This document shows positions 9,355 through 28,394 of a stretch of 64,000 bases of DNA, piece by piece. The DNA comes from a virus. A model generated the notes under the pieces. The model worked only from the letters and a program-made list of their open reading frames with translations. It was not told the DNA's origin and did no database searches. A program made the translations under genes and the position numbers. Within the stretch, counting starts at the first letter, position 1. Each line of letters starts with the position of its first letter. Location of the stretch: IMG/VR virus record IMGVR_UViG_3300020442_000005, positions 209,026 through 273,025 of that record, one strand, 5' to 3'.

Positions 9355-9492
9355 ATGTATTATGTTAGGAGCGTCGTTAGATTTATAAGTCAACGGCTAT
9401 GTAAACCAAAAACAATAAACAAAGAATTAGATCCGGAGTACTGTGATGCCTGTGAATGCACGCCCTGTGATTGCGGATTTGGGAGTTATTAA
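9355..9492 (+). CDS. Cys-rich 45-aa peptide
   Basis: A 45-codon frame starts directly after the mini-DnaJ stop and ends in a TAATG overlap with metK. The C terminus reads YCDACECTPCDCGFGSY, six Cys in twelve residues, suggesting a metal-binding knuckle. The N terminus is basic. Its strict coupling to both neighbours supports real translation. No family recognised. Confidence 0.65.
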   Translation: MYYVRSVVRFISQRLCKPKTINKELDPEYCDACECTPCDCGFGSY

Positions 9493-10475
9493 TGTCATTT
9501 AAAAATTATAGAACAGCAGAATGCGTCACACCAAAACATCCGGACAAAATTTGTGATACGATTTCTGACGCAATCTTAGACCATTGTCTTAAGTCAGATC
9601 CATATTCTCGAGTTGCCATTGAGACTGCTGGCGGCCATGGCCATATTCACATCACTGGTGAGATTACAACAAATGCCTTTTTGCCGCTTGAAGAAATTGC
9701 AACAGAGGTTTATGGAAAGCCAATCAAAGTTACGACCAATGTTGTACAACAAAGCAATGAGATCGCGCAAGGTGTTGACACAGGTGGAGCCGGAGATCAA
9801 GGGATTATGGTAGGCTATGCATGCGATCACAATCCAGAAATGATTCCAAACGAGTTGTTTCTTTCAAGACAGATCTGCAAAGAAATATTTAAAGCCTTTC
9901 CGTTTGATGGTAAAACACAGGTCACTCTAGAAAACAACAAAATCAAGACAGTTGTTGCCAGTTTTCAAAACGCTCCGAAAACAGAACTGACAAGAATCAT
10001 CAATGGTTGGCTAAGGTCTTGTAGTTTTCCAGTCGATGATAACGTTACCCTTCACTGTAACCCAGCTGGAGATTGGAAAGTCGGTGGCTTTGATGCGGAT
10101 GCCGGACTTACCGGTAGAAAGATCGTGATTGATAACTATGGCCCAGCTATCCCAGTCGGTGGAGGAGCATTCTCTGGTAAAGATCCAACAAAAGTAGATC
10201 GGTCCGCCGCATATATGGCTAGAAAAATTGCTGTAGATCACTTGCAACTTCTTCCAAAAAGAAAAGATGGAAACGAAATCTACGTTTATCTTGCTTATGC
10301 TATTGGCTATGACCAACCTGTACAAGCAACGATGATCGTTAACGGAAAAGAGAAATTAGTAACTGGATACGATTTAAGTCCGAACGGAATTATTGAGCAT
10401 CTGGATCTAAGAAAACCAAAGTACTTTGAAACTGCACGTTGGGGCCATATGGGCACTGACCAAACATGGGGATAA
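9492..10475 (+). CDS. metK: S-adenosylmethionine synthetase (MetK)
   Basis: Makes SAM from methionine and ATP. Diagnostic motifs: TPKHPDKICD (13-22, the ATP/metal site His and Asp), GAGDQGIMVGYA (99-110), DAGLTGRKIVIDNYG (203-217) and the phosphate-binding GGGAFSGKDPTKVDRS (223-238). At 327 residues it is about 55 shorter than typical bacterial MetK (~384); the loss is spread through loops, with all core motifs kept, so I expect activity. It opens a tightly overlapping operon with a QueF homologue, metH and ahcY, which together form a closed methyl cycle. Confidence 0.95.
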   Translation: MSFKNYRTAECVTPKHPDKICDTISDAILDHCLKSDPYSRVAIETAGGHGHIHITGEITTNAFLPLEEIATEVYGKPIKVTTNVVQQSNEIAQGVDTGGAGDQGIMVGYACDHNPEMIPNELFLSRQICKEIFKAFPFDGKTQVTLENNKIKTVVASFQNAPKTELTRIINGWLRSCSFPVDDNVTLHCNPAGDWKVGGFDADAGLTGRKIVIDNYGPAIPVGGGAFSGKDPTKVDRSAAYMARKIAVDHLQLLPKRKDGNEIYVYLAYAIGYDQPVQATMIVNGKEKLVTGYDLSPNGIIEHLDLRKPKYFETARWGHMGTDQTWG

Positions 10476-10476
10476 A

Positions 10477-10920
10477 ATGAGTTCTGAATCAACACCAAAA
10501 CCAAAAAGAAAAAGAAACTGGGCAAAGAACAGAGATATTCTGAAAGCTATACCAAACCCTTCCGGGGATGCGTATGAGATTAAAATGAAAATACCTGAGC
10601 TTACATTTGAAGGTGTTCGATCTCAGCCGGATTTTGCTAATCTGTATATCACTTTTTACCCGGGCAAAAAAGTTATTGAGCTTAAGTCATTGAAAGAATA
10701 TTTCTTTGCTTTTAGATCACAAATATATTCATATGAAAGAATCATCAATGTTATCTACGATGATATGATGGCTGTGTATGAACCAACAAGATTGCGACTG
10801 GTCATGACTTGTAATCCTCGTGGTGGGATCTCGTCTAAATTAACTGTAGATTCAGACTGGGGAGTTCGTGGTGGCAATGACCAGTTTATGGATTGGGTAG
10901 GGCAAAAAGAAGAATGGTAA
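10477..10920 (+). CDS. QueF-type T-fold protein lacking the catalytic cysteine
   Basis: The 147-residue protein aligns with type I QueF (NADPH-dependent preQ0 reductase): PELTF near residue 36, [32 protein letters not shown], a conserved YER, and NPRGGIS. QueF reduces 7-cyano-7-deazaguanine through a thioimide on the Cys of the TSLCP loop. Here that loop reads [11 protein letters not shown], one residue shorter and with no Cys, so the standard chemistry should be lost, although the Asp of QPDF and the Glu of the purine pocket remain. It may bind a deazapurine or related base without reducing it. It sits between metK and metH; metH starts inside its last codons. Confidence 0.8.
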
Positions 10921-13900
10921 GTTTTGATAAAAATCAGATCTATATTATTGATGGTGCAATGGGCACCGAAATACAGAAAAGACAGGTTGAATCCAAATTC
11001 TTTAAATACGAAGGAATCGACTGCGATGGCTTTAATGATATTTTGGTGCTCACCAAACCCGGCCTGATAAAAGATATACACGGTGATTACATCAACTCCG
11101 GCGCAAATATCATTGAGACAAATACCTTTAACGCTAATTATATTTCAGCGTTAGATTACGGACTTAGTGATGGAGCGATCGATAAAATAAACTTTAGCGC
11201 TGCCAAAATTGCAAAACAGGCTGCAAAAAAATCTAAAGAAGAGGTGTATGTAGCCGGTGTTTTAGGCCCGACTTCAAAAACTTTAAGCATGTCACCAAAC
11301 GTTACAGATCCTTCTTATAGAGATATCACGTACCATGAATTACTCAATGCTTATAAAGCCGCAACTGAAAATCTAATTCGTGGTGGCGCAGATTTGATTT
11401 TAATCGAAACAGTCTTTGACACACTTAATGCCAAGGCTGCGATTGAGGCTGTGAGACTGGTAGGAGAAGATATTCCTATCATGATATCAGGTACAATCGT
11501 TGACATGTCTGGTCGGACTTTATCTGGCCAGACTGTCGAGGCTTTTTGGAATTCCATTAAACACGCAAGGCCTATTAGTGTTGGTTTGAATTGTGCGCTA
11601 GGTGCAAAGCAAATGGATCCATTTCTGCGGCGTCTAGCAGACGTCAGTGGTTGCGCAATCAGCGCACATCCGAACGCGGGGTTACCAAACGAATTAGGTG
11701 AATACGACCAATCCCCGTCTGATATGGCAAACTATATTAAGAACTGGGCAAAAGCCGGGATTGTAAATATAATAGGTGGATGTTGTGGGTCGACTCCGGA
11801 TCACATCAAAAAGATAGCCAACACCGTAAAAAAGTTTAAACCCAAAAGGCACATAACCAGAAGTTTTAATTTGGACCGGTCAATGATTCTTTCTGGTTTA
11901 GAGGTCTTTGATAGCAAAGGAAAGAACTTTATTAATATTGGCGAGCGAACAAACGTCACTGGGTCTTCAAGGTTTAAAAAATGTATCGTAGAAAAAAGAT
12001 ATGATGATGCGTTGAATATTGCTCGTTCGCAGATTCTAAATGGCGCCCAGATTATCGATATCAATATGGACGATGGACTCTTAGATTCTAAGAGTGAAAT
12101 GATTAATTTTTTAAAAATGTTGGCATGCGAGCCTGATATTGCAAAAGTACCAATCATGCTTGATTCTTCGAAGTGGGATATCCTATCGGAAGCCATGAGA
12201 TGGATACAAGGGAAAGGTATTGTAAATTCAATTTCTCTTAAAGATGGAGAATCAGACTTTCTTGCCCGGGCAAAAGAAATTGTTTCGTGCGGACACGCTT
12301 TTGTGGTAATGGCTTTTGATGAAAAAGGGCAGGCTGATACTTTTGATAGAAAAATAGAGATATGTGAACGCGCTTATTGGATTTTAGTTAACGCAGGAAT
12401 AAAGCCACAAGACATTATTTTTGATCCAAATATCTTTGCAATCGCCACCGGGATAGAAGAACACGACAACTATGCAGTCGACTTTATAACTGCTACTGCA
12501 TGGATTAAAAAGAACCTGCCTGGATGCTACGTCTCCGGAGGATTATCAAACCTATCATTCTCTTTCAGGGGAAATCCTCGCGTGAGAGAGATGATGCATT
12601 CCGTCTTTTTGTTTCATGCTATCAAAGCCGGGTTGGACATGGCGATTGTAAACGCAGGTCAACTAATGGTGTACGACCAGATCGATCAAGGCCATCGGGA
12701 CATTGTTGAATCTGTTATTTTAAATAAGCATGAAGAAGCATCGGCACAGCTTTTAGAATTAGCAAAATCTCTATCTGGTAAAACCCGAGTAGAATCTAAC
12801 GGGTTCCAAGAATGGCGTAACGAAGAGGTTGAAGAAAGAATATCTTTTGCCCTTATAAACGGTATCGATAAATTTATCGTCGAAGATGTCAAGGAATGTT
12901 ACAACAAAATAGGCTCGGCATTAAACGTTGTTGAAGGACCGTTGATGGATGGTATGAACGTAGTTGGAGACCTTTTTGGCTCCGGTAAAATGTTTTTACC
13001 TCAAGTAGTCAAGTCAGCGCGTGTAATGAAAAAAGCAGTCTCGTGGCTCGAGCCTTTTATGGTTGGCACAGATGAAGCAATACAGAGGGAAAAAATACTG
13101 CTTGCCACAGTTAAAGGCGACGTTCATGACATTGGAAAAAACATTGTTAGTATAGTTCTTCAATGTAATGGATACGAGATAGTTGATCTAGGAGTCATGG
13201 TTCCATTAGAAAAGATACTAGAGGAAGCTGATAAACACCAGGTTGCAGCAATCGGTCTTAGCGGATTGATTACACCAAGTTTAGATGAGATGGTTAAAGT
13301 TGCTCGAGCAATGAATGAAAGACAAATGGATATACCTTTACTAATTGGTGGAGCAACAACATCAAAAGTTCACACGGCAATCAAAATATCTCCGGAGTAC
13401 TCAAAAACAGTATATATACAAAATGCATCGATTGCAGTCGGAATTGTTAATGACGTGTTAAGTAAGAGTGATGCATTCGATAAGATTAATAGGGATTATG
13501 AAGAAACTAGGGAGAGAAGAAACTCGAGAAAGCAAACGTTTGTAAGTGTTTCTGATGCAAGAAGAAATGCATATCAGCTAAAAGGAAAGCCACAGATTCC
13601 AGATAACTTTGGAATGACTATCAAAAGCAAAGCTTCAGTTTCAGAGATCATACCATATATTGATTGGGCACCGTTTGCAATGACTTGGGGAATGAAACCA
13701 AAAGATCTTACAAGCCAAGTCGGTAAAGATCTAATGAAGGATGCCCGAGAAATGCTTCGAAAACTTGATGATAAGATTGTAGTTAACTATTCATTTGCTA
13801 TCGATAAATGTACAAAAACAAATAATGACGATGTACTGGTGAAAAGACCGGATAAATCAACGACTTTTAATTTCATGAGGCAAGCAACAAAAAAATCTCG

Positions 13901-14429
13901 GCCGAATCTTTGTTTGACAGATTTCTTACATCAGGAAGATTGGATAGGGTCTTTTGCGGTCTGGGTGTGCGGAATCGATAAGAGAGCAGACATGCTCAGA
14001 TTAGCCAACGATGATTACGGATCGATCATGATGCAAGCGCTTGGGGATAGACTCGCCGAAGCAACGGCTGAATGGCTACACGAGAGGGTTCGTAAGTCAT
14101 GGTGGGGTTACTCAAAAGACGAAAACTTGACAAATACCGACCTTATAAAAGAGCGTTACTTAGGAATCAGGCCAGCACCCGGATATCCAGCCTGTCCGGA
14201 TCATACCCAGAAGATAAAAATATTAAACTGGTTAGAAATTAGTGATACAATAGAGCTGACCGAGGGTTTAACAATGTCGCCAAAGTCCGCAATATGTGGT
14301 TGGTACTTTGCAAGTGCAGAATCAAAATACTTCGGTGTTGGAAAAATACCAGACGAATACGTAGAAGATTTAAAAGAAAGAAATCCATATCTAAAAAAAT
14401 ACAAAAATCATATAACGGGAGTTAGTTAA
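10914..14429 (+). CDS. metH: cobalamin-dependent methionine synthase (MetH), full length
   Basis: Transfers methyl from 5-methyltetrahydrofolate through cobalamin to homocysteine. All four modules are present in 1171 residues (E. coli 1227). Homocysteine domain (1-300): DGAMGTEIQ, zinc ligands in GLNCALG and GGCCGST (near 288-292). Pterin domain (from ~340): [14 protein letters not shown]. Cobalamin module: helical cap, then DVHDIGKN near 734-741, whose His is the lower-axial cobalt ligand, and later [11 protein letters not shown] and [11 protein letters not shown]. Reactivation domain: [12 protein letters not shown] near 1086. No frameshift seen. It overlaps the upstream stop and ends two bases before ahcY. 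It depends on host cobalamin, folate and flavodoxin. Confidence 0.95.
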
Positions 14430-14430
14430 C

Positions 14431-15759
14431 ATGGATAAATTTACAGATTACAAAGTCGCAGATACAAATCTATGGCGTTGGGGAAAAGACGAGGTAGAAT
14501 TAGCAGAACATGAAATGCCAGGCCTCATGGCACTGCGTGAAAAGTATGCAGCAGACAAACCACTTCAAGGAGCTAGAATTGCCGGGTGTTTGCATATGAC
14601 AATCCAGACCGCTGTTTTAATCGACACTCTTGTCGAGCTTGGCGCAGATGTACGTTGGATGACGTGTAATATCTATTCGACACAAGATCACGCCGCGGCA
14701 TACATTGCAGAGCAGCAAATCCCAGTGTTTGCTTGGAAGGGAATGACCGAGGATGACTATGAGGAATGTTTAGAAAAAGTCTTATGGTTCGATGAAGGCG
14801 TAGGTCCAAACATGATTCTAGATGACGGTGGTGACCTCACAGGATATATCCTGAAGAACCATCCGGATCTTTATAAGGATATTAAGGGTATCTCCGAAGA
14901 GACAACTACTGGTGTTTTAAGATTGGTAGAGTATCAAAACGATGGGGTCCTGCCGGTACCTTGCTTTAACGTTAACGATTCTGTTACTAAATCAAAGTTT
15001 GACAACAAGTACGGATGTCGTGAGTCGTGTGTTGATGCGATTCGAAGAGCGACAGACATCATGATGGCGGGAAAAGTTGCGACTGTGGCTGGCTATGGCG
15101 ACGTAGGTAAAGGTTCTGCTGCTAGTCTGTCCGCGGCTGGCTGTCGTGTTATTGTCACTGAGATCGATCCAATCTGTGCATTGCAAGCCGTAATGGACGG
15201 ATTCCAGGTTTTACCTATGGACGAAGCGGTTAAGCAATCCGACATTGTAGTTACAGCAACCGGTAATTGCGACGTGGTTAGATCAGAACATTTTTCCAAT
15301 ATGAAAGACAACGTTATCGTTTGTAACATTGGACATTTTGATAACGAGATCGATGTAGCATGGTTAAACGAGAACTTCGAATCCAAAAACGTAAAACCAC
15401 AGGTCGACGTATATTATCTTCCGTCCGGACTGACTGATAATAAACCAAATCCTCCGTACAAGAAGATCGTTCTGTTAGCACAGGGAAGACTAGTGAATCT
15501 AGGTTGCGCCACCGGGCATCCAAGCTTTGTTATGTCCTGTTCTTTTGCAAATCAGGTACTTGCACAGATCGAGTTATTTTTGAACTCTGATAATTATGAA
15601 AATAAAGTTTATGTGCTCCCAAAGATTCTTGACGAAGAGGTTGCCAGATTGCATCTCGATCACGTTGGCGCCAAACTCGATAAACTTTCAAACGTTCAGT
15701 CGAAATACATTGGCGTGAAACAAACCGGTCCATTTAAGTCTGACGAATATCGTTACTAG
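14431..15759 (+). CDS. ahcY: S-adenosylhomocysteinase (AhcY/SahH)
   Basis: Hydrolyses S-adenosylhomocysteine to homocysteine and adenosine, using bound NAD. The 442-residue protein has all landmarks: [13 protein letters not shown] (substrate His), [36 protein letters not shown], the Rossmann motif [12 protein letters not shown] (NAD), [30 protein letters not shown] and the C-terminal K-Y-R-Y-type tail (SDEYRY). It closes the cycle with metK and metH and removes the product inhibitor of methyltransferases. A perfect terminator follows. Confidence 0.95.
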
Positions 15760-18121: not shown

Positions 18122-18206
18122 TGCTCGGGTGGCGGAATCGGTAGACGCACCAGACTTAAAATCTGTTGTCCGTATGGGCGTGAGGGTTCAAGTCCCTCTT
18201 CGAGCA
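18122..18206 (+). tRNA. tRNA-Leu (anticodon TAA)
   Basis: TGCTCGG pairs with TCGAGCA (one G-U) to form the acceptor stem. The anticodon loop CTTAAAA sits between CAGA and TCTG, a class II variable arm follows, and the T arm GAGGG-TTCAAGT-CCCTC is perfect. 85 bases; no CCA encoded. Confidence 0.93.
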
Positions 18207-18216
18207 TTACAATAGG

Positions 18217-18366
18217 GAATACCTGAGGGGAAGGTATTTTAAATGAGATTGACCTGAAGCTAGATATTACGCTGGGATCCACAACGAACTTTTATATGAT
18301 CGACCGCTATAATCTAGAACATCCGCCCTTTCATTTCTTTAAACAATAATTAATTAGGTTATACAA
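18217..18366. other. spacer with hairpin after tRNA-Leu
   Basis: AATACCT and AGGTATT near 18217-18238 form a 7-bp stem around GAGGGGA, possibly a processing signal or weak terminator. The rest up to 18366 holds A/T-rich boxes and no convincing gene. Confidence 0.35.
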
Positions 18367-18756
18367 ATGGAATTAACAAATGGCCAGATTGAGATAGGTA
18401 TAGTGTTTTTCTATGGCTTTGTAGCAGGATTAGTTGTCAGTATTCTGTATGCTCATGAGCGTTGGAAAAACTTCAACTACGACGAGGAACGACGGTTACA
18501 ATATCAAAAAGAAACGGATGAAAGAAGAAGGATACGCCTTGAGAAATATAAAGAGATGAGAAATCCTGAATCTCAGTTACGAGTGATACATAAGCAGGAA
18601 GAATATATAAGAGAATTACTCTTAGAGCAAGCTAGACTGCACAAACAACTCAATGCATTCGCTGGATGGCCTGAATATGAACACTTCCACGAAGATCTTA
18701 TGAAAAAAATCGACAAACGATTTGAATCTTTACGAATTGAACATGATAACATTTGA
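18367..18756 (+). CDS. membrane-anchored coiled-coil protein, 129 aa
   Basis: Residues 10-30 (IGIVFFYGFVAGLVVSILYA) form one membrane helix, followed by a long charged helix (35-95, Arg/Glu/Lys heptads) and a His/Glu-rich end. The layout recalls phage spanin or lysis-accessory proteins, but no signal cleavage site or lipobox is seen, so the function is open. It lies within the tRNA cluster. Confidence 0.7.
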   Translation: MELTNGQIEIGIVFFYGFVAGLVVSILYAHERWKNFNYDEERRLQYQKETDERRRIRLEKYKEMRNPESQLRVIHKQEEYIRELLLEQARLHKQLNAFAGWPEYEHFHEDLMKKIDKRFESLRIEHDNI

Positions 18757-18803
18757 ACAACTACAGGACTATCTGTATAATAACTAGGTAAACAAAACTT
18801 CAT

Positions 18804-18877
18804 GCATCCATAGCTCAGCTGGATAGAGCATCCGCCTTCTAAGCGGACGGTCGCAGGTTCGAATCCTGCTGGATGTA
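18804..18877 (+). tRNA. tRNA-Arg (anticodon TCT)
   Basis: GCATCCA pairs with TGGATGT (one G-U), the D arm GCTC...GAGC is standard, the anticodon loop CTTCTAA is held by CCGC/GCGG, and the T arm GCAGG-TTCGAAT-CCTGC is perfect. It reads AGA, a codon common in these genes. Confidence 0.93.
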
Positions 18878-18881
18878 CTTT

Positions 18882-18953
18882 TGGTCTGTAGTGTAATAGG
18901 TAACACACCAGTTTTTGGCACTGGCGTTCTAGGTTCAAGTCCTGGCAGACCAG
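18882..18953 (+). tRNA. tRNA-Gln (anticodon TTG)
   Basis: TGGTCTG/CAGACCA acceptor stem, D stem GTGT/ACAC, anticodon loop TTTTGGC in a CCAGT/ACTGG stem, T arm TAGG-TTCAAGT-CCTG. It begins four bases after tRNA-Arg, so they are probably cut from one transcript. Confidence 0.92.
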
Positions 18954-18992
18954 CTTTTATACAACTTTAAACAATAGGGTATTATTATTTAT

Positions 18993-19033
18993 GGGTCTAG
19001 TTAACCTCGAGGGTTCGAACCCCTCTATGACCA
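18993..19033 (+). pseudogene. tRNA remnant lacking D and anticodon arms
   Basis: A perfect T arm (GAGGG-TTCGAAC-CCCTC) followed by TATGACCA lies only nine bases after GGGTCTAG, an incomplete match for an acceptor strand. There is no room for D and anticodon arms, so this looks like a tRNA gene collapsed by internal deletion. Confidence 0.6.
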
Positions 19034-19164
19034 AGCAGGCAGGGAGCAATGACTAGATGTCGCCAACAGAAAGATATTCACCAGTATCTCCTTTTGGTTG
19101 ATAAGCCTTGGGATAGGAAAGTGGTGAGTCCTATCCCAAAGTTCCATCCTTAACTTCATCACAC
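19034..19164 (+). ncRNA. structured spacer in tRNA cluster, candidate small stable RNA
   Basis: No gene is visible here. TTGGGATAGG (19108-19117) pairs perfectly with CCTATCCCAA (19130-19139), and a smaller AGATA/TATCT hairpin lies near 19070. Phage T4 encodes small stable RNAs inside its tRNA cluster, so a similar RNA is possible; the assignment is inference. Confidence 0.35.
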
Positions 19165-19237
<73 letters not shown>

Positions 19238-19240
19238 TAG

Positions 19241-19313
19241 GCGGGAATAGCTCAGTTGGTAGAGCACCACGTTGCCAACGTGGAAGTCGCGAGTTCAAGT
19301 CTCGTTTCCCGCT
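19241..19313 (+). tRNA. tRNA-Gly (anticodon GCC)
   Basis: GCGGGAA/TTCCCGC acceptor stem, standard D arm, anticodon loop TTGCCAA in CCACG/CGTGG, T arm GCGAG-TTCAAGT-CTCGT. It begins three bases after tRNA-Thr. Confidence 0.94.
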
Positions 19314-19318
19314 CTTTT

Positions 19319-19391
19319 GGACACTTAGCTCAGCGGTCAGAGCATCCGACTCATAATCGGCAGGTCCAGGGTTCAATCCCCTGAGTGTCCA
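19319..19391 (+). tRNA. tRNA-Met-type (anticodon CAT)
   Basis: GGACACT/AGTGTCC acceptor stem, D arm GCTC...GAGC, anticodon loop CTCATAA in CCGA/TCGG, T arm CAGGG-TTCAATC-CCCTG. With a CAT anticodon it could be elongator Met, or Ile if C34 is modified to lysidine; the paired first base argues against an initiator. Confidence 0.92.
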
Positions 19392-19537: not shown

Positions 19538-20395
19538 ATGATCGGACATACACCATTCATCTGTATTGACAATGATGAAAGAATATGGGCAAAACTAGAA
19601 ACACACAATAAAACCGGATCTGTAAAAGATCGAATGATTGATTACATATGCGATAATGCTCTTGCAAATGGTGCAATCATTCCTGGAAAGACCCGGCTCA
19701 TTGAGGCAACCAGTGGAAATACTGGAATTGCTTTAGCCAGTTATGCAGCCTCAGTGGGATGCAAATGCCAAATCATAATGCCATGTAACATGTCGGAAGA
19801 AAGAAAACAAATGATGCATGCGTTCGGCGCCGAAATTATAGAAACCGGCCCAAACGAATTTGGACGTGCAATTGCGATGAGAGACTTGAAACTGCGGAAG
19901 TCTAACCCCGGAGAATATTTCTCGCCTCTTCAATTTAGTAATCCTTTAAATGTGGAATGTCACAGAACAACCACAGCGCCAGAGATTCACCAGAACATAA
20001 CAGACATTAAGTGTCTCGCTTGGGATGCATTCGTGCATGGCTCTGGAACTGGAGGGACTATGATGGGATTGAAGAGTTACATTGATGAGAATAGGTTAGG
20101 AGTGAAATGCGTCTTAACTCAGCCGGAAGAAGATAACGCATCCCATGGAATACAGGGCATTAACGATGGTGCTGATTTTCTATTAGATAAGTCATTGATG
20201 GATGAGTTTATATACGTGAAGACGTCCTCAGCAATTGAACGAATGAAGAGATTCTGGAAAGAAAATGGTATCCTGATCGGCATCAGTTCCGGGGCAAACA
20301 TTCTGGCTGCAGAAGAATACGTGAGAAAGCATGATCCAGCTGGAATCGTCGTCACTATTTTATGTGATCGTGGAGAAAGATATTTAAAATGTTGA
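19538..20395 (+). CDS. PLP-dependent cysteine synthase / cystathionine beta-synthase family enzyme
   Basis: A fold-type II PLP enzyme of 285 residues. KTGSVKDR (25-32) holds the Schiff-base Lys30, SGNTG (59-63) binds the substrate carboxylate, GSGTGGT binds PLP phosphate, GISSGAN is near 247, and LCDRGERY is at the end. The first ~8 residues of typical enzymes are shortened. CysM/CysK make cysteine from O-acetyl-(phospho)serine and sulfide; cystathionine beta-synthase uses homocysteine and serine. The GSVKDR form suits CysM or CBS better than CysK. With a homocysteine-producing operon nearby, a CBS-like role is attractive but unproven. Confidence 0.88.
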   Translation: MIGHTPFICIDNDERIWAKLETHNKTGSVKDRMIDYICDNALANGAIIPGKTRLIEATSGNTGIALASYAASVGCKCQIIMPCNMSEERKQMMHAFGAEIIETGPNEFGRAIAMRDLKLRKSNPGEYFSPLQFSNPLNVECHRTTTAPEIHQNITDIKCLAWDAFVHGSGTGGTMMGLKSYIDENRLGVKCVLTQPEEDNASHGIQGINDGADFLLDKSLMDEFIYVKTSSAIERMKRFWKENGILIGISSGANILAAEEYVRKHDPAGIVVTILCDRGERYLKC

Positions 20396-26970: not shown

Positions 26971-27015
26971 GTGTCAACTATATATTTATAAATGCACTAT
27001 TTCAAAGGGTTATTT

Positions 27016-28008
27016 ATGGAAAAATATGGTTGGAATCCTCTGTCAGGCCTAATAAAAGATATAAAGCTGTCAGGTGGATTTGTAAATGCGCACTCTCATT
27101 TGGACAGAGCACATACCGTTACACAAGAGATGATGGTAAAAACAAAAGACCATCTACACCAAAAATGGAAACTAGTTGACGACATTAAATTAAAAAGAAC
27201 TACTGATGATTACCGATTTGATATCAAACGTGCTCTAGATCATCAGAGACATATCGGAATCAACACTATATGTTCGTTTATAGACATTGACGAAGTAGTA
27301 GGTTACAAAGCTATCGATGGCGCTGTACTAGCGAGAAAAGATATTCACGACCAAATCGGTGTAGACGGAATGAATATCCAGTTTGCATGCCAAACCTTGA
27401 AAGGAGTTTTAGATCAGAATAATTTTGAGCTGATAAAAAATAGAATCCATTGTTTTGATATCATAGGATCACTGCCTGGCGCTGATAAAAATCGAGAAGC
27501 AGAACATTTGGATGTTGTGATGAAACTTGCAAAAGACCAAAACAAAATGTTGCATGTACACGTCGATCAACTCAACGACCCAAACGAGAAAGAGACGGAA
27601 CTCTTGTGTAGGAAAACAATCGAACACGGGTTAGAAGGAAAGGTCGTTGCAATACATTCAATTTCTCTTGCTGCGCATTCTAAACGATACAGACATGAAG
27701 TTTATAAAATGGCAAAGGACGCTGGTCTAATGTTTGTTACATGTCCGACCGCATGGATCGATCACCCAAGAAATGAAACTCTTATGCCTTTCCATAATGC
27801 TGTAACTCCAGTTGATGAATTACTTACTTATGATTTAACCATTGGAATCGGATCGGATAATATACATGATATCTATAAACCATATTCAGACGGAAACATG
27901 GAAACTGAATTAAGATTCTTGCTTGAATCTTGCAAGATATATGACGTTAACGTACTAAAAAACATTGCAACCATTGGTGGATTAAAAGTTTGCGGCATAA
28001 TTAAGTAA
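27016..28008 (+). CDS. cytosine-deaminase-type amidohydrolase
   Basis: A metal-dependent TIM-barrel hydrolase of 330 residues. GGFVNAHSHLDRAHT holds HxH at 26 and 28; HVHVDQLND supplies the third His, IHSISLAAHS the fourth, and IGIGSDNIHDIYKPYSDGNM the Asp, in the same order and spacing as E. coli CodA (HIHLD, HCDE, SHTTAMHS, GHDDVFDP). The small N- and C-terminal beta sandwich of CodA is mostly missing. It may deaminate cytosine, another pyrimidine or an adenosine-related base. AAGGG precedes ATG 27016; an upstream in-frame ATG 26992 lacks a site. Confidence 0.85.
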   Translation: MEKYGWNPLSGLIKDIKLSGGFVNAHSHLDRAHTVTQEMMVKTKDHLHQKWKLVDDIKLKRTTDDYRFDIKRALDHQRHIGINTICSFIDIDEVVGYKAIDGAVLARKDIHDQIGVDGMNIQFACQTLKGVLDQNNFELIKNRIHCFDIIGSLPGADKNREAEHLDVVMKLAKDQNKMLHVHVDQLNDPNEKETELLCRKTIEHGLEGKVVAIHSISLAAHSKRYRHEVYKMAKDAGLMFVTCPTAWIDHPRNETLMPFHNAVTPVDELLTYDLTIGIGSDNIHDIYKPYSDGNMETELRFLLESCKIYDVNVLKNIATIGGLKVCGIIK

Positions 28009-28031: not shown

Positions 28032-28394
28032 ATGAGTAAAAAATGGTCTAGATCAGACGTGGTTAACTGGATGAGAATGATAAACGAGTGTGGCTGTGAG
28101 GACGAAAGCCACAGCGTACATGGTGATACGATGTTCAGCGTTTCGTTTGAGCCACAGATGTTGCGTGACGTCGTACAACAAAAGATGGGATCCATGAATG
28201 CAATGTGTCCTGAATCATATGAAATGGCAGCTGACTTTGTATGCCAAGATCCTCATGCAGTTCTGGAAATGATAAAGCCTTTAATGGCTCAGATTGGAAT
28301 AGGATGTCCCCAGTCATTTGCAAAAGCGATGGCAGATGTATTTTACGCCGGGCAGGACATGGGAATTGTTAAACCTTTCAACACAGAGAAATAA
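28032..28394 (+). CDS. hypothetical protein, 120 aa
   Basis: A soluble helical protein with five Cys and many Met (CGCEDES, MCPES, CPQSFAK). GGAG before ATG 28032. The Cys could bind metal; no known family. Confidence 0.75.
   Translation: MSKKWSRSDVVNWMRMINECGCEDESHSVHGDTMFSVSFEPQMLRDVVQQKMGSMNAMCPESYEMAADFVCQDPHAVLEMIKPLMAQIGIGCPQSFAKAMADVFYAGQDMGIVKPFNTEK

Follow-up and report, generated by a model that had tools for sequence, protein, structure and literature searches.

A cysteine-less QueF-type T-fold protein encoded beside S-adenosylmethionine cycle genes in phages

The locus

The window analysed here, 64 kb in length, is the final part of a 273,025-base virus record in IMG/VR. It carries a set of methyl-cycle genes and, among them, a small gene for a QueF-like protein without cysteine in its substrate loop:

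9492–10475, + strand: metK, a short phage-type S-adenosylmethionine (SAM) synthetase of 327 aa (TIGR01034, 255 bits, below the cut-off of 309; PHROG 1569, 302 bits)
10477–10920, + strand: open reading frame for the cysteine-less QueF-type T-fold protein, 147 aa, with an ATG at 10477 and a stop codon at 10918–10920 (PF14489, TIGR03139, AlphaFold2 model)
10914–14429, + strand: metH, cobalamin-dependent methionine synthase (TIGR02082, 1406 bits), with S-methyl_trans (homocysteine), Pterin_bind, B12-binding and activation domains; the gene begins inside the 3′ end of the preceding one
14431–15759, + strand: ahcY, S-adenosylhomocysteine (SAH) hydrolase (TIGR00936, 602 bits)

The 147-aa product scores 76.5 bits against the Pfam QueF family (PF14489, cut-off 27.3) and 93.7 bits against the NCBIfam QueF-II 'preQ(1) synthase' model (TIGR03139, cut-off 86.9), and its best solved relatives are structures of B. 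subtilis QueF. An AlphaFold2 prediction that drew on 50 relatives (pLDDT 85.9, pTM 0.82) superposes on one of these, 4f8b, over 127 residues at 2.8 Å (VIA-align Z 16.9). After QueF, the structure comparison ranks QueF-L, GTP cyclohydrolase I and dihydroneopterin aldolase, which are pterin and deazaguanine T-folds. We regard the assignment to the QueF-type T-fold, made from profiles and a predicted structure, as secure. A preliminary description of this DNA had placed a QueF homologue inside a SAM operon and had proposed superposing a predicted structure on Bacillus QueF as a check; the profile scores, the three flanking genes and the superposition all agree with it.

Several other features of the window deserve mention. 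Directly upstream of metK, at 9363–9491, there is a possible open reading frame of 40–45 aa that is rich in cysteine (CDACECTPCDC). Six tRNA genes lie at 18123–19391, followed by a cysteine-synthase-like gene at 19538–20395, and a deaminase-like amidohydrolase is encoded at 26992–28008 (PRK06886, 355 bits); a similar amidohydrolase gene stands two genes from the cysteine-less gene in another locus, L035 (3839–4795). About 20 genes with unrelated bodies, at 28336–54637 (+ strand) and also at 2353–2751 (− strand), have a common short N-terminal segment (MKxLRxYIRxxLxE or MKIxKxQLRRIIxEEYxR). By analogy, we would guess that this segment resembles the capsid-targeting, protease-cleaved N-terminus of T4-like internal head proteins.

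A single-origin clade without the catalytic cysteine

Sixteen close relatives were found in IMG/VR, and profile searches added more distant phages and bacterial contigs. Removal of duplicates left 75 distinct cysteine-less sequences, to which an independent ahcY search contributed six more; the resulting 81 come mostly from aquatic phages, and also from three gammaproteobacteria. One locus (L046) carries a Methylococcaceae label, and its gene order is like that of phages. In the genomes of two others (L047 and L048; genomes G025 and G026) the gene occurs in addition to one for a canonical bimodular QueF. Among the genomes sampled, 3 of 150 in the carriers' bacterial family contain it, as does 1 of 369 in the class.

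The cysteine-less proteins are a single-origin clade, set apart from the canonical sequences in the tree by a branch with support 100/98. Their precise sister group is uncertain, since the tree program flagged long branches among several canonical rows, including the halovirus QueF L064, which joins beside the cysteine-less group. Pairwise dN is 0.02–0.18 with dS near saturation, and dN so far below dS indicates strong purifying selection on the protein.

Columns were compared in an alignment of the 75 sequences with 76 canonical ones (75 viral or bacterial QueFs and one stretch of B. subtilis QueF), and invariance was counted over all 81. The elements compared, all on the + strand, are as follows:

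10603–10635: substrate loop, residues 43–53, with Gly46 (10612–10614) in the Cys55 slot, Pro56 deleted, and Asp62 kept as Asp52
10678–10701: QueF (NADPH) motif ELKSLKEY, in which Glu68 corresponds to Glu78 of B. subtilis QueF
10729–10740: SYER, with Tyr86 in the His96 slot, the substrate-anchoring Glu97 kept as Glu87, and Arg88 new
10816–10833: PRGGIS, kept, with R115, G116 and G117 invariant in the 81
10849–10860: DSDW, a subfamily-specific tail motif at a place where canonical QueF has no conservation; D125 is invariant

Relative to B. subtilis QueF (TSLCPKTGQPDF), the loop has no Cys55 and is one residue shorter. The Cys55 column is Gly in 75/75 cysteine-less sequences and Cys in 76/76 canonical ones, and the next Pro is deleted in the former; this Gly is invariant in all 81, with Cys in the slot in none. 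The columns of Asp62 and Glu97 are, by contrast, uniform across both sets (75/75 and 76/76 for each), and both keep the Arg-Gly of RGG. At His96 the cysteine-less set has Tyr (75/75) where the canonical set has His (68/76). In the NADPH motif, E68, K70, S71 and K73 are kept in both sets and invariant in the 81. New invariants are E34, R88 (Arg in 75/75 of the aligned set), S120 and D125, and R105, R107, S126, D127 and W128 are each present in 79–80 of 81. Net charge per 100 aa is +0.97, versus −2.21 for canonical QueF. A relocated catalytic cysteine was considered and rejected: the column richest in Cys, C112, reaches 44/81, while Cys42 occurs in five sequences and Cys47 in three. In three members of one small clade (L003, L005 and L017) a cysteine directly follows the residue in the slot (TFEGCRG).

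QueF holds its substrate through Glu97, forms the thioimide on Cys55 and takes the hydride from NADPH; sequences are recognized as QueF by Cys55/194, Asp62/201, Glu97/234 and a QueF motif with Glu78/94, and those without Cys55 are excluded (PMC5372742). The thioimide cysteine of QueF-L, Cys21, is required (PMC5485725). The cysteine-less family has Asp62/201, Glu97/234 and the Glu78/94 motif, and lacks Cys55/194 and the His of the His96 slot. Given the published requirement for the cysteine, its members are by definition neither QueF nor QueF-L, and because the residue is absent from the whole subfamily, the thioimide chemistry of both enzymes is unavailable to them. The preliminary description had reached the same view from the shortened, cysteine-free loop of the window protein, naming as its possible undoing close homologues with Cys in that loop; none of the 81 has it in the slot. 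As for the motifs it listed as kept, KSLKEY, FRS and PRGGIS are indeed retained, but YER is not a QueF motif: the canonical form is F-H-E, of which the Glu is kept and the His has become Tyr.

Unimodular QueF (TIGR03139; B. subtilis, 4f8b/4fgc) is thus the nearest known system, sharing the T-fold, about 33% identity, the NADPH motif, Glu97, Asp62 and RGG; the cysteine-less protein differs from it in having no Cys55, Pro56 or His96, a loop shorter by one, the DSDW tail and new basic residues. The archaeosine synthase QueF-L (5jyx/5k0p) has the T-fold and a similar core (Z 14.1), but identity is only 11% and it keeps its thioimide cysteine. GTP cyclohydrolase I and dihydroneopterin aldolase share the fold at about 12% identity, and their substrates have the same pyrimidine moiety as the one proposed below; the QueF NADPH motif sets the cysteine-less protein apart from them. 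The kept Glu and Asp suggest that a 2-amino-4-oxo-pyrimidine ring is bound, and guanine, pterin and folate would fit equally.

Gene neighbourhoods and the 7-deazaguanine pathway

We compared 65 canonical viral QueF loci with 75 cysteine-less loci, considering neighbours within about 6 kb. A queC gene lies near 54/65 canonical genes versus 0/75 cysteine-less ones, and folE near 48/65 versus 0/75. Conversely, metK is found near 13/75 cysteine-less genes versus 0/65 canonical ones (p=0.0002), ahcY near 8/75 versus 0/65 and an SAH-nucleosidase-like gene near 7/75 versus 0/65; metH was found at none of the 65 canonical loci. At least one of metK, ahcY, metH and the SAH-nucleosidase-like gene is present in 17 of the 75 cysteine-less loci, about a quarter. 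With Q standing for the cysteine-less gene, the SAM-linked gene orders are:

metK-Q-metH-ahcY: the window and L046; L002 ends after metK-Q-metH
Q-ferredoxin-ahcY: L007, L015
Q-metK-ahcY: L039, L041, L100, L124
APRT-like-metK-Q-nucleosidase: L099, L134, L139
metK-Q: L117

An S-adenosylmethionine decarboxylase gene (PF02675) is close to Q in L072, and a similar gene in four other loci. When 80 viral ahcY loci were picked without regard to Q, it was directly upstream in nine, often 2 bp away; seven of these were new, and one reads metK-Q-ahcY. The SAM linkage requires at least eight changes on the tree and is therefore not one inherited block. The rest of the family has neighbours of other kinds, glycan and replication genes among them; the link thus recurs without being universal. 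At gathering level, Rfam found nothing but tRNAs in 13 SAM-linked or cysteine-less loci, and window positions 1–30000 gave no riboswitch of the SAM, preQ1 or THF type.

Family searches, in which control genomes matched as expected, were used to look for the preQ0 pathway, with folE and queE covered in the neighbourhoods only. TGT/DpdA was found neither in 17 virus records, the 273-kb and 289-kb ones included, nor in 21 further ones (38 in total). The 17 records also contain no QueD and no QueC above the cut-off, with one sub-threshold partial QueC match. Phages with 7-deazaguanine DNA encode pathway genes or depend on the host (PMC6884629); a host contribution would be possible in principle, and nothing observed points there. 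The preliminary description had tied the gene to methyl metabolism and had taken the ligand to be 7-deazaguanine-like, with a search of the rest of the genome as a check. The first of these ideas is upheld by the repeated linkage with metK, ahcY, metH and SAH nucleosidase genes; the second finds no match in the searches, either in the records, the 273-kb one among them, or beside the 75 genes.

In our judgement, held with high confidence, the cysteine-less proteins form a subfamily of their own, which has a function other than queuosine synthesis and is repeatedly associated with SAM metabolism. The case is a clean one, in that deletion of the catalytic residue is accompanied by an entirely changed gene neighbourhood, SAM genes taking the place of queC and folE. 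TIGR03139 matches all 50 cysteine-less members scanned; automatic annotation would name the window protein preQ(1) synthase though the defining residue is absent, and dozens of phage genomes would wrongly be taken to make 7-deazaguanine DNA. Phage QueF genes have been reported in deazaguanine clusters (PMC6884629), and metK and SAH nucleosidase genes, also found here, have been reported in Lake Baikal phage genomes with no mention of QueF (PMC7678222). In the open-access literature we found no paper that describes a cysteine-less QueF subfamily or that deals jointly with QueF and methylenetetrahydrofolate reductase.

Some neighbours of Q are worth recording in their own right. A small ferredoxin gene comes right after Q, sometimes overlapping it, in six of the 75 loci (L003, L005, L007, L008, L015 and L017); that of L007 is Fer4_13, a 4Fe-4S single-cluster type (Pfam). 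We rejected the ferredoxin as electron donor to the Q protein, which shows neither a conserved Cys nor a flavin motif. The SAH-nucleosidase-like gene of L134 has a Cys-rich N-terminal extension (DUF5522), and phage genes of phosphoenolpyruvate carboxykinase and TilS type adjoin Q (L016, 2579–4057; L038 and L040, 6549–7160).

Candidate reactions

Judging from its residues and its gene context, the cysteine-less protein probably catalyses a different reaction from QueF. Our best guess is that it uses NADPH to reduce a pterin-like compound of the methyl cycle, which may be 5,10-methylene-tetrahydrofolate (5,10-methylene-THF). The protein would then be an active reductase that needs no thiol and acts on a bicyclic 2-amino-4-oxo-pyrimidine; the likeliest such substrate would be 5,10-methylene-THF, reduced to 5-methyl-THF, MetH's methyl donor. 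With the same Glu holding the pyrimidine, the exocyclic carbon at N5 of THF (beside O4) would overlie that at C7 of preQ0 (beside O6). 5,10-methylene-THF would open to the 5-iminium and the NADPH hydride would reduce its C=N; this bond is already activated and a thiol would thus not be needed, whereas activation of a nitrile by QueF's route is not possible with the thiol missing. Replacement of Cys by Gly and deletion of Pro would free space on the side of N10, which Asp52 could protonate, and the new basic residues K38, R88, R105 and R107 could grip the p-aminobenzoyl-glutamate tail. In metK-Q-metH-ahcY, Q would fill the bacterial position of metF; in the bacterial carrier G397, metF comes directly after metK, that is, where Q lies in the window.

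That the protein reduces 5,10-methylene-THF to 5-methyl-THF and so feeds MetH is a tentative proposal, and if it is true, the committed step into methyl metabolism has a new enzyme, one that phages encode. The wider picture is more doubtful: a flavin-free, thiol-free T-fold methylenetetrahydrofolate reductase of QueF lineage, which phages would have spread as the methyl input to the viral SAM cycle and which would stand in for MetF in some bacteria. MetF (PF02219) would share with the cysteine-less protein only the proposed reaction and the place in the operon; it is a flavin enzyme and not homologous to this QueF-type T-fold, as assigned by profile and structure comparison. No MetF was found in the 17 virus records, and none was detected in G025 and G026, an uncontrolled comparison in metagenome assemblies that may be incomplete; these two do have dihydrofolate reductase (DHFR) and canonical QueF. 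G397 has both MetF and the cysteine-less gene, which speaks against simple replacement there. None of the 160 viral metK/ahcY loci contains metF, so they carry no information on mutual exclusion of metF and Q in phages. A viral metH search with a single protein query gave no match, and a motif search returned eight loci, two with metF beside metH. Counted against methylene-THF are also the ferredoxin beside 6/75 members, which has no role in this scheme, the location of only about a quarter of members near SAM genes, and the new basic residues, which would suit a nucleotide or nucleic-acid substrate equally.

This last point leads to a rival that we consider possible, if rather doubtful: another NADPH-dependent or a non-redox reaction on a guanine- or pterin-like substrate, needed when phages drive SAM metabolism. 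It might be reduction of a dihydropterin or dihydrofolate, or modification of a purine nucleotide or a nucleic-acid-bound base. The whole pocket is kept save the thiol and His, the positive net charge and new invariant basic residues would fit a phosphorylated or polyanionic ligand, and DNA adenine methyltransferase genes lie near several loci (L039 by profile match, the others by resemblance); the gene context, however, singles out no specific substrate. For the dihydrofolate variant, a normal DHFR in all three bacterial carriers and in one phage carrier indicates no displacement, and DHFR replacement was ruled out as the leading idea on this ground.

We consider it unlikely that the protein is catalytically inactive and serves as a binder or regulator, responding to a small molecule of guanine, deazaguanine or pterin type by tuning MetK, AhcY or host enzymes. 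The loss of both Cys and His, needed for nitrile chemistry, and the tight coupling with ahcY and metK would suit such a role, but E68, K70, S71, K73 and Asp52 are invariant in the 81 and a mere binder needs none of them; moreover, no one fusion or partner gene is common to the loci. A preQ0 reductase or other 7-deazaguanine enzyme with another nucleophile, or none, is highly improbable. Against the above-cut-off match of the window protein to the NCBI preQ1 synthase model and its kept Glu and Asp stand the lack of any cysteine column above 44/81, the published definition with its Cys55/194 (PMC5372742), the separate bimodular QueF retained in G025 and G026, and the pathway searches (TGT/DpdA in 0/38 records, no QueD or above-cut-off QueC in 17, no queC or folE near the 75). 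Finally, the loss of a catalytic residue might by itself suggest a decaying pseudo-enzyme or a sequencing artefact, a negligible prospect already refuted by sequence constraint: 81 independent sequences have identical replacements, with dN/dS far below 1 and intact frames.
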